This document shows positions 1-5,835 of a stretch of 5,933 bases of DNA, in pieces (within the stretch, counting starts at the first letter, position 1; every line of letters begins with the position of its first letter). A program made the position numbers and the translations under genes. The DNA is taken from assembly GCF_903643065.1 (NCBI RefSeq), contig NZ_CAHJWX010000142.1:1-5933 (forward strand). The letters run 5' to 3'. Origin of the DNA: Sphingomonas bacterium (GTDB lineage Bacteria > Pseudomonadota > Alphaproteobacteria > Sphingomonadales > Sphingomonadaceae). Under the pieces are notes generated by a model. The model worked only from the letters and a program-made list of their open reading frames with translations. It did no database searches and was not told where the DNA came from.

Positions 1-1383
1 CCCCAGCCACTCCAGCCGGTGCGGCAGCAGCGTGAACAGCGAGCCCGCGCCGATCGCCGCCAGCGCGGCCCAGCCCAGCGGCCAGCGCCACGGGTTGACC
101 GGGGCGTCCAGCGCCCTCGCCAGCACGCGCGCCTTGATGATCGAGGTCAGCGCCAGCGTCGCCATCAGCGCCACGGCGACGCCCGCCGCCTGCCAGTGCG
201 GCGGCCAGCCGAACGCGCGCGCGCCGAGCACCAGCGCGAAGCTGAGCGCGATCTGGACGGCGAGCATCGCCACCGAGATGCCCAGGTTGGTCAGCCGCGC
301 GACATAGACCAGCGCCGATTCGCACACCGCGCCGGTCGAGGCGAGCACCTCGGCGGTGAGCAGGAAGCCGAGCGCGGCGGTGCCGGCGACGAAGCGCGGG
401 CCGATCACCCCCATCACCGCCTTGCCCGGAATGGAGCCCATCAGCGCGATGCCGCCCTGCGCCGCCATGATCCAGAACGCGACTTGGCGGACCTGGTCGG
501 CGATCGCGCGGCGGTCGCCCCGGGCGAGGCTGTTGGTGATGACGGGCCCCAGGATGGGGTCGAAGCTGGTCTTGAGCTTCTGCGGGATCGAGCTGACCTG
601 CTGCGCCATATAGTAGAGGCCGACCACCTCCGGCGCGAACAACAGGCCCAGGATGAAGCGGTCGACATTGCGGCTCCCCCATTCGAGCGCGTCCGCGCCC
701 GCGAGCGGGGCGTTGCGGCGCGCGAGGTGCCACAGCGCGAGCGGGCGCGGCGACCAGCCGCTCGGGATGCCGTACGAGCGCAGGAACGGGATCAGGCTGG
801 CGGTCAGCGCCGCCACCATCGAGGCGACATAGGACAGGACCAGCCCGTCGCGGATGGTGACGAACGAGAACAGATACGCCGCCGCCGAGATCGTCCACGG
901 CTCGACGATGGCGCGCGCGGTGACGGTCGCGCGCACGTTCAGTCGATACGCCAGCGCGGCGAGGCTGACGTCCGACAGCGCGGGGCCGAGCACGACGAGG
1001 CCGAGGTAGCGATCGAGCCCGTGCACGGGCGAGTTCGGGTACATGACCTGCGGGAAGCACCAGAGCAGCGCGCTCAGCCCCAGCGAGGCGATCGCCGCGA
1101 CCGCCATCGCGTCCCAGGCCACCCAGGCCTGCGGCCGCTCCGCCTCGCGCAGCGCCTGGGCGAGCCCGCGCTTGAGCCCCAGCGTCGCGAGCAGCGCGGC
1201 CAGCTCCACCACCACGACCGCGAGCGCGAAGCGGCCGAGCAAATCGGGGCCATAGCGCCGCCCGGCGATGAACAGGAACGGCAGCCGCGCGGCCAGCCGC
1301 AGCACGAACCCCGCGATATTGGTGCGGCCCCCCCTGGCGAGCGTGTCGATGTCGGGGCGGGGGGTCGTCAACTGATCCGTCAT
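1..1383 (-). CDS. Polysaccharide/lipopolysaccharide flippase (Wzx/MATE-like), 3' end beyond window
   Basis: An open frame of 461 codons runs from ATG at 1383 to base 1 without a stop, so the C-terminus lies outside the window. The product is a multi-pass inner-membrane protein. Hydrophobic segments are visible near residues 22-40, 52-72, 91-110, 127-146, 181-200, 242-260, 300-318, 333-352, 367-388, 398-416 and 435-455. The start MTDQLTTPRPDIDTLARGG leading straight into the first helix, and the mid-protein stretch R238-N-V-D-R-F-I-L-G-L (residues 238-247) followed by VGLYYMAQQ, are typical of oligosaccharide flippases of the MOP superfamily. These move lipid-linked sugar units across the inner membrane for O-antigen, capsule or exopolysaccharide assembly. 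The start is forced: a TGA lies five codons upstream in frame. There is no Shine-Dalgarno, and the ATG overlaps the upstream nuclease stop (ATGA), suggesting coupled translation. Which polysaccharide is exported cannot be told from the window. Confidence 0.8.
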   Translation of the reverse strand, partial: MTDQLTTPRPDIDTLARGGRTNIAGFVLRLAARLPFLFIAGRRYGPDLLGRFALAVVVVELAALLATLGLKRGLAQALREAERPQAWVAWDAMAVAAIASLGLSALLWCFPQVMYPNSPVHGLDRYLGLVVLGPALSDVSLAALAYRLNVRATVTARAIVEPWTISAAAYLFSFVTIRDGLVLSYVASMVAALTASLIPFLRSYGIPSGWSPRPLALWHLARRNAPLAGADALEWGSRNVDRFILGLLFAPEVVGLYYMAQQVSSIPQKLKTSFDPILGPVITNSLARGDRRAIADQVRQVAFWIMAAQGGIALMGSIPGKAVMGVIGPRFVAGTAALGFLLTAEVLASTGAVCESALVYVARLTNLGISVAMLAVQIALSFALVLGARAFGWPPHWQAAGVAVALMATLALTSIIKARVLARALDAPVNPWRWPLGWAALAAIGAGSLFTLLPHRLEWLG

Positions 1384-1414
1384 GCTGAACTTGTTTCAGC
1401 ATCCACGCGCGACG
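1379..1414. repeat. REP-like palindromic repeat, left arm
   Basis: This is the exact reverse complement of 1751-1786 over 36 bases; the match ends at 1378/1787 and at 1415/1750. It contains a hairpin of its own: ATGCTGAA (1382-1389), loop CTTGT, TTCAGCAT (1395-1402), followed by an arm tail ending in CACGCGCGACG. It encodes the last ten residues of the nuclease (SRVDAETSSA) and its TGA, and it supplies the ATG of the flippase. I recall the same core, and peptides read through it such as HAELVSAS and MLKQVQHD, as common in alphaproteobacterial genomes; this is memory, not a search. Confidence 0.85.
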
Positions 1415-1730
1415 CCGAACCGGGGTTGAGCGGCGCGAAGCCATAGTCGACCGCCAGATCGCGCCAGCACGGGTTGGTGGCCTCGATCAGATTGATCTTC
1501 CACGCCCGATGCCAGCGCTTCAGCTGCTTTTCTCGCAGGATGGCATGTTCCATGTCGCCGAAGAACTCGACCAGCACCAGCCGGGTCACGCCGTACCGGT
1601 TGGTGAAGCCGCGGACCTGCTTCTCGCGATGCTGCCACCAGCGACCCAGCGGGTCGGATGTCACGCCGATATAGAGCGTGCCACGCCGCTGGCCGGCCAG
1701 GATGTACACGGCGGGCGTGCGCTGTCTCAT
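1380..1730 (-). CDS. Single-domain GIY-YIG endonuclease (YhbQ/UPF0213-like)
   Basis: A 116-residue protein made of one GIY-YIG nuclease domain, a fold that cuts DNA using a metal ion. The signature elements are present: VYIL at 8-11 (Y9), LYIGVT at 19-24 (Y20), an arginine in GRWWQHR (R30), and the catalytic glutamate in REKQLKRW (E67), followed by WKINLIEATNP and WRDL, the usual end of the small stand-alone family. Catalytic residues therefore look intact. Residues beyond about 97 are not part of the fold; the last ten come from the repeat at 1379-1414. The gene starts 60 bases after the polA stop and its TGA overlaps the flippase ATG, so it may be co-transcribed with both. A weak GGGA about 15 bases upstream is the only ribosome-site candidate. 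Members are often annotated as UvrC-like, but no other UvrC domain is present. Biological role is unknown. Confidence 0.88.
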   Translation of the reverse strand: MRQRTPAVYILAGQRRGTLYIGVTSDPLGRWWQHREKQVRGFTNRYGVTRLVLVEFFGDMEHAILREKQLKRWHRAWKINLIEATNPCWRDLAVDYGFAPLNPGSASRVDAETSSA

Positions 1731-1750
1731 TCGTGCAATCCCGTTCGAGC

Positions 1751-1786
1751 CGTCGCGCGTGGATGCTGAAACAAGTTCAGCATGAC
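1751..1786. repeat. REP-like palindromic repeat, right arm, just past polA
   Basis: Inverted copy of 1379-1414, identical over 36 bases. Its inner hairpin is ATGCTGAA (1763-1770), loop ACAAG, TTCAGCAT (1776-1783). It begins 5 bases beyond the polA stop codon on the transcribed strand, so in polA mRNA the hairpin would form directly after the coding region and could protect the 3' end or attenuate transcription into the nuclease gene. There is no run of T after the stem, so it is not a textbook intrinsic terminator. The long arms could also pair with each other across the nuclease gene in RNA or single-stranded DNA. Confidence 0.85.
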
Positions 1787-1790
1787 AAGG

Positions 1791-4559
1791 TCAGTGCGCG
1801 CTGCCCCAGCTTGCGCCCACGCCGATCTCGACGCCCAGCGGCACCGACAGCGGCACCGCCGGTTCGGCGGCGGTCGCCATCACGCCTTCGATCACCGGGC
1901 GGGCGGCGTCGACCAGCTCGTCGGGCACCTCGAACACGAGCTCGTCATGGACCTGGAGCAGCATCCTGACGCGATCGAGCCCCGCTGCCGCGAGCGCCGG
2001 TTCCATGCGGACCATCGCGCGCTTGATGATGTCGGCGCTGCTGCCCTGGATCGGCGCGTTGATCGCGGCGCGCTCGGCGCCCTGGCGCTCGTTCATGACC
2101 TTGGACTTGATCCGGGGGAACCAGGTCTTGCGGCCGAAGAGCGTCTGCGTGAAGCCGCGCTCGCGGACCTGGGTCAGCGTGTCGGCCATGTAGCGGTTGA
2201 TGCCGGGGAAGCGTTCGAAGTAACGGTCGATCATCGCCTGCGCCTCGTCGGGCGTCACCTCCAGCCGGCCCGCCAGCCCCCAGCGGCTGATGCCGTACAG
2301 GATGGCGAAGTTGATCGTCTTGGCGCGCGACCGGGTGTCGCGGTTGACCTCGCCGAACAGCTCGGTGGCGGTAAGCGCGTGGATGTCCTCCCCATCGGCA
2401 TAGGCCTGTTTGAGCGCGGGGACGTCCGCCATGTGCGCCGCCAGCCGCAGCTCGATCTGCGAATAGTCGGCCGCCAGGATGACGTGGCCGGGTTCGGCGA
2501 TGAAGGCGTCGCGGATCTGCCGGCCGACCTCGGTGCGGATCGGGATGTTCTGGAGGTTGGGCTCGGTGGACGACAGCCGCCCGGTCTGCGCGCCGGTCAG
2601 GCTGTAGCTGGTGTGGACGCGGCCGGTCGCCGGGTTGATCTCTCCCTGGAGCGCGTCGGTATAGGTGTTCTTGAGCTTGGTCAGCTGGCGCCATTCCAGC
2701 ACCTTGCGCACCACCTCGCTGCCCGGCGCCTTCTCGCGCGCGAGCCGTTCCAGCTCGGTGACGTCGGTCGAATAGACCCCCGACTTGCCCTTGCGCCCGC
2801 CCTTGAGCCCCAGCCGCTCGAACAGCACGTCGCCCAGCTGCTTGGGGCTGCCGATCGTGAACGGGCCGCCGGCGAGCTGGTGCACCTCGCCCTCCAGCGC
2901 GGCGATCTGGCCGCTGAACTCGGCCGACAGCGCGTGGAGCCGTGCGGCGTCGACCTTGATCCCGCGCCGCTCCATCGCGGCGACAACGGGCACCAGCGCG
3001 CGATCGACCATCTCGTACACCCGCGTCGCCCCCTCCGCCGGCAGGCGCGCGCGGAACCGCTTCCACAGCCGCAACGTGACGTCCGCGTCCTCGGCGGCGT
3101 AGCGGGTGGCGGTGGGCAGGTCGATCTCGGCGAAGCCGCGCTGCGTCTTGCCGGTTCCGACCACGTCCTTGTACGCGATGCATGAATGCTGGAGGTGCGT
3201 CGCCGCCAGCTCGTCCATGCCATGGCCGTGCAGCCCGGCATCGAGGTCGAACGACAGCACGATCGTGTCGTCGTGCGGGGCGACGGCGATGCCGCGCTCG
3301 CCCAGCACGATCATGTCGAACTTGATGTTGTGCCCGATCTTGAGGACGGACGCGTCCTCGAACAAAGCCTTGAGCCGGTCCAGGCACGGTTCGCACTCGA
3401 TCTGGTCGGGGTTGTCGGCGAGCAGATCGGTGCCGCCATGCCGGAGCGGCACATAGCAGGCGCGGTTGGGAGCGAGCGCGAGGCTGACGCCGACCAGCTC
3501 GGCGCGCGTCGCGTCGGTGCCGCTCGTCTCCGTGTCGATCGCGACGAACCCCTGCGCGCGCGCGTCGGCGATCCAGCGGTCGAGCGCGTCGAGCGTCAGC
3601 ACCGTCTCGTACGCGTCGTGGTCGCACGGCGGGTCCGGCGCGAACGGCGCGCTCGGCACCGCGACCGGCGCGTCGGCGACCTGCGCCAGCTTGGTGAGCA
3701 GCGTGCGGAAGCCGTGATGCTCCAGGAAGGCGCGCAACGGCGCCTCCGGGATGCCCTGGAGCACCAGCTCGTCGAGCGGGTGCTCCAGCGGCGCGTCGCA
3801 TTTCAGCCTGACCAGCTCGCGGCTCATCCGCGCGGCGTCGGCATGGTCGCGCAGATTGTCGCGCAGCTTGCCCTTCTTGAACGTGTCGAGCGCGGCGGCG
3901 GCGAGCACGCCCTCCACGTCGCCATGCTCGTTGATCAGCTGCGCCGCCGTTTTCGGCCCCACGCCCGGCACGCCCGGCACGTTGTCGACGCTGTCCCCCA
4001 TCAGCGCCAGTACCTGGCCGAGCTTGTCGGGGCCGACGCCGAACTTCTCCTGGACATAGTCCGCGCCCAGCCGGCGGTTGTTCATCGTGTCGTACAGGTC
4101 GAGCCCGGGCTCGATCAGCTGCATCAGGTCCTTGTCGCTGCTGACGATCGTCACCTGCCAGCCCTGCGCCAGCGCCGCCTTGGCATAGGACGCGATCAGG
4201 TCGTCCGCCTCCAGCCCCTCCTCCTCGATACACGGCAGCGAAAAGGCGCGCGTCGCGTCGCGGATCATCGGGAATTGCGGGACGAGATCGGCGGGCGGGG
4301 GCGGCCGGTGCGCCTTGTAGTCGGCGTACATCTCGTTGCGGAAGGTCTGGGACGAGGCGTCGAGGATCACCGCCATGTGCGTCGGGCCGCCCCCTTCTTC
4401 CTTGGCGCCGGCGTGGACCTCGTCCGCCAGCTTCCAGAGCATGGTCGTGTAGCCATAGACGGCGCCGACCGGCTCGCCATGCTTGTTGGTGAGCGGCGGC
4501 AGGCGATGGTAGGCGCGGAAGATATAGCCCGAGCCGTCGACGAGGTAGAGATGGGGCAT
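1791..4559 (-). CDS. polA: DNA polymerase I
   Basis: A complete 922-residue PolA (E. coli: 928), cytoplasmic, which fills gaps and removes RNA primers in replication and excision repair. Three domains appear in order. The 5'-3' flap nuclease spans about 1-295, with D8 in LVDGSGY, D67, the acidic group EADD (117-120), SDKD (141-144), and the helix-hairpin-helix region GDSVDNVPGVPGVGPKTA (188-205). The 3'-5' proofreading exonuclease spans about 320-505, with DTET (D342, E344), NIKFD (D415) and YAAED (Y487, D491), so proofreading looks active. The polymerase domain spans about 515-922, with motif A DYSQIELR (D698), motif B R743...K747...F751...Y755, and motif C VHDE (H871, D872, E873). Phe at 751 (F762 in E. 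coli) predicts normal discrimination against dideoxynucleotides. The start MPHLYLVDGSGYIFRAYH matches the family start; no clear ribosome site precedes it. Confidence 0.98.
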   Translation of the reverse strand: MPHLYLVDGSGYIFRAYHRLPPLTNKHGEPVGAVYGYTTMLWKLADEVHAGAKEEGGGPTHMAVILDASSQTFRNEMYADYKAHRPPPPADLVPQFPMIRDATRAFSLPCIEEEGLEADDLIASYAKAALAQGWQVTIVSSDKDLMQLIEPGLDLYDTMNNRRLGADYVQEKFGVGPDKLGQVLALMGDSVDNVPGVPGVGPKTAAQLINEHGDVEGVLAAAALDTFKKGKLRDNLRDHADAARMSRELVRLKCDAPLEHPLDELVLQGIPEAPLRAFLEHHGFRTLLTKLAQVADAPVAVPSAPFAPDPPCDHDAYETVLTLDALDRWIADARAQGFVAIDTETSGTDATRAELVGVSLALAPNRACYVPLRHGGTDLLADNPDQIECEPCLDRLKALFEDASVLKIGHNIKFDMIVLGERGIAVAPHDDTIVLSFDLDAGLHGHGMDELAATHLQHSCIAYKDVVGTGKTQRGFAEIDLPTATRYAAEDADVTLRLWKRFRARLPAEGATRVYEMVDRALVPVVAAMERRGIKVDAARLHALSAEFSGQIAALEGEVHQLAGGPFTIGSPKQLGDVLFERLGLKGGRKGKSGVYSTDVTELERLAREKAPGSEVVRKVLEWRQLTKLKNTYTDALQGEINPATGRVHTSYSLTGAQTGRLSSTEPNLQNIPIRTEVGRQIRDAFIAEPGHVILAADYSQIELRLAAHMADVPALKQAYADGEDIHALTATELFGEVNRDTRSRAKTINFAILYGISRWGLAGRLEVTPDEAQAMIDRYFERFPGINRYMADTLTQVRERGFTQTLFGRKTWFPRIKSKVMNERQGAERAAINAPIQGSSADIIKRAMVRMEPALAAAGLDRVRMLLQVHDELVFEVPDELVDAARPVIEGVMATAAEPAVPLSVPLGVEIGVGASWGSAH

Positions 4560-4595: not shown

Positions 4596-4654
4596 GCCGG
4601 TTGAACCCGGTTTACCCGTTTTGACCTGATTTCAGGTAAAAACGGGTAAACTCG
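4587..4654. promoter_or_regulatory. Phased half-site array, likely operator of the divergent ATPase gene
   Basis: Six related half-sites resembling CGGTTTACC fill most of the 97-base gap between polA and the ATPase gene. Four read forward, starting at 4587 (CGGTTTACA), 4598 (CGGTTGAAC), 4608 (CGGTTTACC) and 4617 (CGTTTTGACC), with steps of 11, 10 and 9 bases. Two read in reverse, CGTTTTTACC (4644-4635) and CGAGTTTACC (4654-4645), 10 bases apart. Spacing near one helical turn would place the sites on one face of the DNA, as for a cooperative regulator. The array ends 2 bases before the ATPase start codon and must overlap its promoter. Autoregulation by the ATPase's own winged-helix region is a reasonable guess; no other regulator gene is visible. 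Confidence 0.55.
4610..4651. repeat. 42-bp near-perfect palindrome
   Basis: Arms GTTTACCCGTTTT (4610-4622) and AAAACGGGTAAAC (4639-4651) are exact reverse complements. Inside them ACCTG (4624-4628) and CAGGT (4633-4637) pair around an ATTT centre. The only mismatch is G4623 against A4638. It is the core of the half-site array and ends 5 bases before the ATPase ATG, leaving no room for a normal ribosome site; the only purine-rich stretch, CGGG at 4643-4646, lies inside the arm. Folded in RNA, the stem would bury that stretch, so control of translation is also possible. Confidence 0.9.
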
Positions 4655-4656
4655 TC

Positions 4657-5835
4657 ATGGATGCCGTTCGGAACCCCTTTGCACCAGGAGCGGGCAACCC
4701 GCCGCCTGAACTGGCAGGACGGCAGGTGCTGCTCGACCAAGCCGACGTGGCGCTGCAACGCGTGAAACAGGGCCGGGCTTCACAAAGCCTGATTCTGGTC
4801 GGGTTGCGAGGTGTCGGAAAGACGGTGCTGCTGAACCGCATCAAGGTCATGGCGGAGGGCTACGGCTATCGGACCGCGTTTGTGGAGGCACATGAGGGCA
4901 AGTCGTTAGCCGAGCTGCTGCTACCGTCGATCCGCAACCTGCTCTTTTCCTTCAGCATGATGGACGCGGCGAAGGAAAAGGCGCGACGTGCTTTGCGTGT
5001 GCTGCGCGGTTTCCTGAGCGCGATCAAGCTGAACCTCGGCCAACTGGACCTGGAGATCGGCCTGGATGCCGAACGCGGCGTCGCGGACAGCGGCGACCTC
5101 GAAAGCGACCTGCCGAACCTGTTGCAGGTCGTCGCGGAGGCGGCGCGCGCGGCCAGCAGCAGCGTCGCCCTGCTCATCGACGAACTGCAATATTTTGATG
5201 AACGCGAGTTCAGCGCACTGATCATGTCGATGCACAAGATCAACCAGGCCGGCCTGCCATTCGTGATGTTCGGCGCCGGCCTGCCGCAAGTGATGGCGCT
5301 CGCGGGCGAGTCGAAATCCTATGCCGAGCGGCTGTTCCGCTATCCACCGATCGGTCCGCTCGATCCCGAAGACGCCGCCGCGGCGCTACGATCGCCGATC
5401 GAGAGCGAAGACGCGGCGATCACCGAACCGGCGCTGGCCCGCATCCTGGAGCTCACCGGGGCCTATCCCTATTTCCTCCAGCAATGGGGCCATGATTGCT
5501 GGAACACCGCCGCCGATCCGTTAATCGAACTCGATGACGTCGACCGGGCCAGCCTGGTCGCGATCCGTACGCTCGATGAAGGCTTCTTCAAGGTACGGTT
5601 CGATCGCTGCACGCCATCGGAGCGCCGGTACATGCGCGCGCTGGCCGAACTGGGGCCCGGCGCGCACCGATCCGGCGATATCGCCCAGATGCTTGGCTTG
5701 AAGACGACCAGCGTCGGACCGACGCGGGGCAAGCTGATCAAGAAAGGCATGATCTACGCGCCAGCCCATGCCGAGACCGAGTTCACCGTCCCCTTGTTCG
5801 ACGAATATATGCGACGCGCGATGCCCGACCTCTGA
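4657..5835 (+). CDS. P-loop ATPase with C-terminal winged-helix-like region
   Basis: A complete 392-residue soluble protein with no signal peptide or membrane segment. The N-terminus NPFAPGAG...PPELAGR (6-22) is the lead-in typical of a bacterial ATP-binding family related to the archaeal ATPase/STAND and Orc1/Cdc6-like groups. Walker A is GLRGVGKT (49-56), Walker B VALLIDE (170-176, D175 and E176), and GAG at 206-208 occupies a sensor-1-like place. R225 and R228 in AERLFRYP are arginine-finger candidates, and GAYPYFLQQWG (268-278) marks the lid. Residues about 318-385 (SERRYMRALAELG...SGDIAQMLG...GKLIKKGMIY) look like a winged helix that could bind DNA. All ATPase residues seem intact. The ATG at 4657 gives the conserved start. 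It stands alone: no partner gene follows, and the next gene faces it. Its base composition is a little less GC-rich than polA, hinting at an accessory gene. Function is unknown. Confidence 0.85.
   Translation: MDAVRNPFAPGAGNPPPELAGRQVLLDQADVALQRVKQGRASQSLILVGLRGVGKTVLLNRIKVMAEGYGYRTAFVEAHEGKSLAELLLPSIRNLLFSFSMMDAAKEKARRALRVLRGFLSAIKLNLGQLDLEIGLDAERGVADSGDLESDLPNLLQVVAEAARAASSSVALLIDELQYFDEREFSALIMSMHKINQAGLPFVMFGAGLPQVMALAGESKSYAERLFRYPPIGPLDPEDAAAALRSPIESEDAAITEPALARILELTGAYPYFLQQWGHDCWNTAADPLIELDDVDRASLVAIRTLDEGFFKVRFDRCTPSERRYMRALAELGPGAHRSGDIAQMLGLKTTSVGPTRGKLIKKGMIYAPAHAETEFTVPLFDEYMRRAMPDL

Follow-up and report, generated by a model that had tools for sequence, protein, structure and literature searches.

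Single-domain GIY-YIG nuclease genes paired with CGTC-tagged palindromes: a probable parallel to the RAYT/REP systems, described from a Sphingomonas locus

In the RAYT/REPIN systems, according to the parts of two accounts that are available (PMC3116915, PMC8049555), each enzyme has a different group of repetitive extragenic palindromic (REP) elements, doublets are the main unit, the enzyme is inherited in place and its presence goes with higher numbers of repeats. CGTC-tagged REPs (CGTC-1 to CGTC-4) were described by Di Nocera and colleagues in 2013; as far as the available part of that paper goes, they are frequent in Alphaproteobacteria, have a CGTC tag, an 8-bp stem beginning with AT, a loop of 4 or 5 nucleotides (nt), a CCA tail and an arrangement as dimers, and apparently lack a dedicated transposase (PMC3733652). 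The term GIY-YIG is absent from that paper. Here we describe a 408-bp unit in a 5,933-nt stretch of Sphingomonas DNA (the window; contig C142, from a genome of 486 contigs and 2.63 Mb that is 72% complete), in which a single-domain GIY-YIG nuclease gene is enclosed by two 36-bp inverted arms. Several counts and controls establish that such genes and CGTC REPs are a widespread pairing.

The unit (1379-1786) lies between polA and a flippase gene, and its parts are as follows.

1379..1414, + strand: left arm, of the ATGCTGAA-CTTGT-TTCAGCAT type, which fits a CGTC-tagged REP; GTC tag at 1379-1381 (after C1378), hairpin at 1382-1402, tail CCACGCGCGACG at 1403-1414
1380..1730, - strand: GIY-YIG nuclease gene, single-domain, 116 amino acids, with a Pfam match
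1751..1786, - strand: right arm, a perfect inverted copy of the left arm, the tag reading TGTC on the - strand

The arms (1379-1414 and 1751-1786) are 36 nt each, 100% complementary and 336 nt apart, the next-best inverted pair of the window being 35 nt long and 71% complementary. Each arm consists of GTC, an 8-bp stem (ATGCTGAA/TTCAGCAT) around the 5-nt loop CTTGT, and then CCACGCGCGACG; folded as DNA it reaches -7.3 kcal/mol (z -2.3), and 6 of 200 shuffled sequences were equally stable. An earlier note on this DNA had described perfect 36-bp inverted arms with an 8-bp stem and a 5-base loop, which both the complementarity and the fold bear out. It had also stated that the arms tightly bracket one single-domain gene: there is one GIY-YIG open reading frame (ORF) with a single Pfam family, but its end overlaps the left arm, inside which lie the stop codon and the last 11 or so codons. 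Judged by its sequence, the window repeat fits a CGTC-tagged REP. The definition allows CGTC, TGTC or CCTC as the unpaired tag, and an 8- or 9-bp stem starting with AT, a 4- or 5-nt loop and a CCA-like tail, for which the window arm has ATGCTGAA, CTTGT and CCA; it is also found in many copies and as inverted dimers (41 sites; 43 of 48 paired). Of the published families, family 2, in the available part of its description, has the layout of 8-bp stem and 5-nt loop that the window arm matches. No Rfam family reached its gathering score in the window.

Among sphingomonads, the association was counted in 81 loci, namely the window and 80 loci (L064-L143) fetched from the 149 matches listed (at least 149 exist); 70 of the 80 were taken by score, three being passed over, and ten were then added, most of them from repeat-rich genomes and six of them without a hairpin. 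A relaxed hairpin filter was used for these counts, the strict filter having lost loci with a differing outer stem pair. At 74 of the 81 loci the nuclease gene has a CGTC-tagged hairpin no more than 250 bp away, and at 49 it has one on both sides; in 20 trials of random placement within these loci the count was 0-7 of 81. Up to that distance from the gene, tagged hairpins reach 4.2 per kb, 8.7 times their density in the other non-ORF DNA of the same loci (0.49 per kb); in ORFs the density is 0.05 per kb. A wider set was made up of the best 80 of 583 confirmed stretches from named genomes, together with 30 loci from a phylum-wide draw in which 87 of the 299 genomes searched had a match. Here 97 of 110 loci have a tagged hairpin, or 86 of 99 once the window and ten loci already counted are removed. 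Outside the Sphingomonadales the figure is 33 of 40 named loci, two of the 40 (L165 and L186) being unplaced Alphaproteobacteria: Betaproteobacteria 7/7, Gammaproteobacteria 15/16, other or unplaced Alphaproteobacteria 5/7, Planctomycetota 2/3, Myxococcota 2/2, one Nitrospira and one unplaced Pseudomonadota locus; single loci of Anaerolineae, Deltaproteobacteria and Candidatus Brocadiia had no tagged hairpin. The expectation that related small GIY-YIG genes be enriched beside the repeat has therefore been upheld, within the sphingomonads and beyond them. A plasmid search found relatives on 32 records.

A control for specificity is provided by the same genome, which has a second small GIY-YIG gene, UPF0213-like, on contig C24 (L032, 1492-1782). 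This gene is followed by a different pair of inverted repeats, TTCG..CTGAGC..GTCGAA. None of 25 homologous loci of this sister subfamily, its own locus included, has a CGTC hairpin within 250 bp (Fisher p 3e-18 against the window type), whereas the TTCG..CTGAGC..GTCGAA repeat is found at 14 of the 25 with the wider of two patterns (13 with the first) and at 0 of the 81 window-type loci (p 4e-11). Among the 61 genomes searched there are some in which that repeat is itself dispersed, in up to 118 copies; its median is 17 copies in the 21 genomes with a UPF0213-like gene and 2 in the 16 without (p 0.01), presence being set at 70 bits for these 37 genomes, although two loci of about 50 bits (L307 and L308) are still among the 25 controls. 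The repeat's presence at 14 of the 25 loci suggests that it and the UPF0213-like gene are a second nuclease-repeat partnership.

The kind of hairpin follows the kind of nuclease. The hairpins next to the gene were sorted into classes according to their inner stem and the length of their loop (A, CTGAA with a loop of 5; B, CCCGC with a loop of 4; C, other with a loop of 5; D, other with a loop of 4), and with 'none' as a fifth label the class changes 13 times on the nuclease tree, against a mean of 47.7 for shuffled labels, none of 200 shuffles being as low. The 81 loci represent 26 genomic contexts, and the joined set 83. When each context is represented by one locus, the nearest neighbour is of the same class in 43.6 of 73 cases (shuffled mean 20.7, maximum 37), so that the covariation of repeat type with nuclease subfamily, which had been proposed as a check, holds also across contexts. 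Co-occurrence was examined in 73 genomes, of which 25 had no locus in the nuclease tree; clade membership was taken from that tree by hand, and two loci with A hairpins outside the main clade (L096 and L097) were left out of clade A. Matched pairs gave, with p values here and below uncorrected for the relatedness of the genomes, an area under the curve (AUC) of 0.84 for A-A (p 8e-6), 0.91 for B-B (p 7.5e-6) and 0.84 for C-C (p 4.5e-5); when the 25 are left out, the remaining 48 genomes give 0.80 (p 5e-4), 0.85 (p 3e-4) and 0.82 (p 4e-4). The repeat is not equally abundant irrespective of the enzyme: the median number of A repeats is 14.5 with a clade A nuclease and 1 without. In one context shared by L078, L100, L113 and others, which we take to be the region just before pheS, the GIY-YIG gene has class B or class D hairpins according to the nuclease clade.

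Within its own genome the hairpin, searched as 21 nt with up to three mismatches, has 41 sites, against 0 for a reversed control pattern. Stem pairing was assessed in a sample of 48 sites in 30 loci of this genome, one palindromic site appearing on both strands, with a pattern that left two stem positions and their partners free. Both variable positions are paired at 44 of the 48 sites (shuffled partners: mean 22.3, maximum 32), the variants including ATG/CAT, ACC/GGT and ATC/GAT; thus, the folded form is conserved though the letters vary. The base before GTC is C at 44 sites, T at three and G at one. As to arrangement, 43 of the 48 sites occur in pairs, and 21 of the 22 neighbour pairs are inverted, one pair being the palindromic site counted twice. 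Without that site there are 20 inverted pairs, spanning 84-105 bp, with the tags facing outward and the tails inward, and the window unit has the layout of such a doublet with a gene placed in the middle. The tail CCACGCGCGACG is present at 25 of the 48 sites with up to two mismatches, the window's own two included, and the extended tail CCAYGCGCGACG is common to the arms of the gene unit and many doublet ends (25/48, up to two mismatches). The copies elsewhere, which had been predicted to be lone arms, do exist as dispersed copies, but they are mostly REPIN-like inverted doublets and rarely single, and doublets free of a gene vastly exceed the one gene unit.

The borders of the insertion site are the following two genes.

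1791..4559, - strand: polA (DNA polymerase I)
1..1383, - strand: polysaccharide flippase gene, running off the window

A gap of 4 bp separates the polA stop codon from the end of the right arm. At the other edge, the left arm contains the flippase's listed start, an ATG at 1381-1383, which thus comes from the repeat; a TTG four codons further in is outside the arm. A polA match was obtained in 68 relatives, of which 29 returned loci were read. A flippase is near polA in 28 of the 29 (within about 1.5 kb, and in 26 of these within 300 nt), and in none of the 29 is there a nuclease behind polA; a comparison with junctions that lack the unit had been proposed in the earlier note. In 11 relatives the similarity to the flippase starts within 54 nt of the polA stop; if 1379-1786 were excised, the stop would be 29 nt from where the flippase is conserved, a length covered by these short junctions. 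A tagged hairpin is found within 420 bp behind polA in three of the 29 (L263, L278 and L281), where the CGTC hairpins are not of class A and have no nuclease gene with them; since these are other CGTC hairpins, the polA junction may receive repeats repeatedly. In 25 comparisons among the fetched loci, one genome has hairpin DNA that is missing from the corresponding junction in a second genome. These include two doublets from the genome of the window (L021 and L026); at least four of the 25 repeat another through an overlapping locus, and several concern a single hairpin or extra hairpins beside a nuclease unit. Nuclease loci are often common to different species, and the gene therefore seems to be mostly inherited in place. 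Elsewhere in the window, a 20-bp inverted repeat (4610-4651; 95% complementary, 2 nt between the arms) stands just before an AAA ATPase gene (4657-5835) and may serve as an operator or form a terminator-like hairpin; PADLOC gives only weak matches for the ATPase.

The enclosed ORF of 116 amino acids matches the Pfam GIY-YIG family (E 1.3e-14) and no further Pfam family; at E 0.01 NCBIfam gives nothing for it or for the second small GIY-YIG protein, and PADLOC nothing for it. Y20, R30, H34, E67 and N86 are invariant in 21 of 21 aligned members and Y9 is nearly so, which we take to be the GIY-YIG catalytic pattern. The nearest solved folds to an AlphaFold2 model of the protein (mean pLDDT 86.8) are UPF0213 (1zg2), Slx1 and the N-terminal domain of UvrC, with a best E of 0.005 and none below 0.001; sequence likeness to 1zg2 is weak (E 0.14). 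Slx1 is a branched-DNA nuclease, and its place among the fold neighbours would agree with recognition of a folded substrate.

We consider it probable that the GIY-YIG protein recognises and nicks CGTC hairpins in single-stranded DNA and in this way spreads or maintains the repeats. The protein would recognise hairpins of its own class when the DNA is single-stranded, stem and loop serving as the marks, and would nick the folded hairpin near the CGTC tag or the loop; the short doublets would then be non-autonomous copies, moved or maintained through repair or copying after such nicks. For the gene unit itself, movement is probably rare and inheritance mostly in place, as has been reported for RAYT genes. 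The parallel with RAYT/REP systems is well supported genetically, whereas the cutting and the spreading we infer. Of the earlier proposal that a GIY-YIG enzyme could do here what a RAYT does for REPs, the genetic half has stood (enrichment at 74/81 loci, class following clade), with some amendments: the other copies are mostly not lone arms, the gene seems to be mostly inherited in place, and eight genomes have at least nine copies but no tree-placed nuclease of the main clade.

A number of observations weigh against this interpretation. A tagged hairpin is missing at 7 of the 81 and 13 of the 110 loci, five of the seven being one subgroup of the tree in which other palindromes adjoin the gene. 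Since the 81 loci lie in only 26 contexts, much of the match between class and clade is by descent. Class D is mixed, the nearest neighbour being of the same class in 7% of draws. Some unmatched pairs are also associated in the 73 genomes (clade C with A repeats, AUC 0.73, p 0.005; clade B with A repeats, 0.68, p 0.05); in the 48 genomes these fall to p 0.06 and 0.22, and all unmatched pairs but one have p of at least 0.06, the remaining one being that clade A genomes hold fewer B repeats (AUC 0.31, p 0.03). Scarcity of the repeat without its enzyme is likewise incomplete: of 55 genomes without a tree-placed nuclease of the main clade A, eight have at least nine A repeats and 14 at least four. 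Three of the eight have very many and no clade A nuclease among the loci fetched (G009, 153; G016, 142; G037, 109), and the other five have 9-27; no locus was fetched for G019, G051 and G055, and in G072 A hairpins accompany a nuclease from outside the main clade. Conversely, two genomes with a clade A nuclease have fewer than four A repeats. At the window unit no target duplication is visible by eye, and the presence and absence of hairpins at matching junctions fits gain or loss alike.

Of the alternatives, the one that survives best, though we regard it as unlikely, is that the nuclease does recognise the hairpins but, being a site-specific enzyme for single strands, serves to limit or shape the uptake and recombination of repeat-bearing DNA, the repeats being spread in some other way. 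It fits the same association and the same matching of clades, and it gains from a gonococcal relative (L192), 59% identical, which lies beside ATTCCCGC hairpins, as well as from the 2025 report, taken up below, in which a Neisseria GIY-YIG protein reportedly cuts single-stranded repeats and modulates transformation. Taken alone, however, it leaves unexplained why genomes with the matching clade have more repeats of that class, and why the arms of gene units and the ends of doublets have the tail CCAYGCGCGACG in common. It is far less likely that the hairpins act as RNA, be it as terminators or as elements of mRNA stability, with the GIY-YIG protein processing transcripts, even though the paired changes in the stem would serve RNA equally well and REPs have been proposed as RNA elements in the available part of one paper (PMC3733652). 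The outward tags of the doublets (21/22 neighbour pairs) would be unneeded for terminators. Slx1 and UvrC act on DNA. The fold neighbour 7cq4 is titled as a complex with 5' flap DNA. Just as improbable, in our view, is a gene like those of homing endonucleases, which would insert copies of itself at intergenic junctions and have the repeats as no more than its ends. GIY-YIG enzymes do include homing endonucleases, and the relatives read have no such unit behind polA; yet the target would have to be an empty junction and the junctions used differ, gene-free doublets greatly outnumber the gene unit, and nuclease loci are often common to several species. Passive accumulation of palindromes around dispensable small intergenic genes, with the enzyme unrelated, would suit the mostly intergenic position of hairpins away from the gene (0.49 per kb of non-ORF DNA against 0.05 in ORFs) and the three of 29 gene-less relatives with a hairpin behind polA, but is largely refuted, and we reject it, on the 8.7-fold density contrast, on the sister gene, with 0/25 CGTC hairpins and a different repeat of its own, and on the tracking of clade by class across contexts.

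Part of the finding may already be known. A 2025 report in Nature Communications reportedly concerns Ssn proteins, GIY-YIG single-strand nucleases with cognate repeats, and in it a Neisseria GIY-YIG protein is reported to act on single-stranded repeats by cutting them and to affect transformation. An Ssn is reportedly a small single-domain GIY-YIG protein with a cognate repeat, two features that the window nuclease has, and one that cleaves single-stranded DNA only, in a sequence-specific manner; the emphasis of that work is reportedly on transformation and tools, and not on mobility or on doublets like REPINs. A literature search for GIY-YIG proteins linked to REPs or REPINs found no paper on such a link, most subscription papers, and the 2025 Ssn report, being outside the literature searched. 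Two candidates were set aside: in the available part of PMC9465073 GIY-YIG and rayt genes stand unlinked in one table, and in that of PMC10928387 the match to 'rayt' is an author's name.

The regular GIY-YIG partner, with its clades matched to kinds of hairpin, is a named candidate for the transposase question raised by CGTC REPs in the available part of their description (PMC3733652). If the preferred interpretation, of a nuclease that acts on its own class of hairpin, is correct, REP/REPIN systems would have at least two origins, with enzymes unrelated to each other, and nature would provide a series of nucleases for which the neighbouring repeats reveal the preferred stem-loop. More broadly, we tentatively entertain, at somewhat less than even confidence, that single-domain GIY-YIG nucleases constitute a second, chemically unrelated REP/REPIN system, from Proteobacteria to Planctomycetota, in which each subfamily owns a repeat superfamily (the window type CGTC REPs, the UPF0213-like type the TTCG..CTGAGC repeat), each clade owns a stem-loop code and the short doublets spread through bacterial genomes.

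Compared with the systems already described, the locus stands as follows. UPF0213 (1zg2), Slx1 and the N-terminal domain of UvrC share the GIY-YIG fold with the window nuclease; UPF0213 differs in its weak sequence similarity and in that the UPF0213-like genes of these genomes have no CGTC hairpins (0/25). CGTC REPs, in the available part of the published account (PMC3733652), apparently have no dedicated transposase, whereas here a GIY-YIG gene is their regular neighbour. The RAYT/REPIN systems, or REPtrons, as far as the available parts of their descriptions go (PMC3116915, PMC8049555), likewise have one small enzyme with adjoining repeats, a repeat class for each enzyme, doublets, inheritance in place and higher repeat numbers alongside the enzyme, and the enzyme flanked by its repeats is found here on both sides at 49 of 81 loci and on at least one side at 74. 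The difference is in the chemistry and the tag: the RAYT enzyme is a tyrosine transposase of the IS200/IS605 group and its tag is GTAG, whereas the window protein has a Pfam match to GIY-YIG only and a model that matches GIY-YIG folds, and its tag is CGTC.

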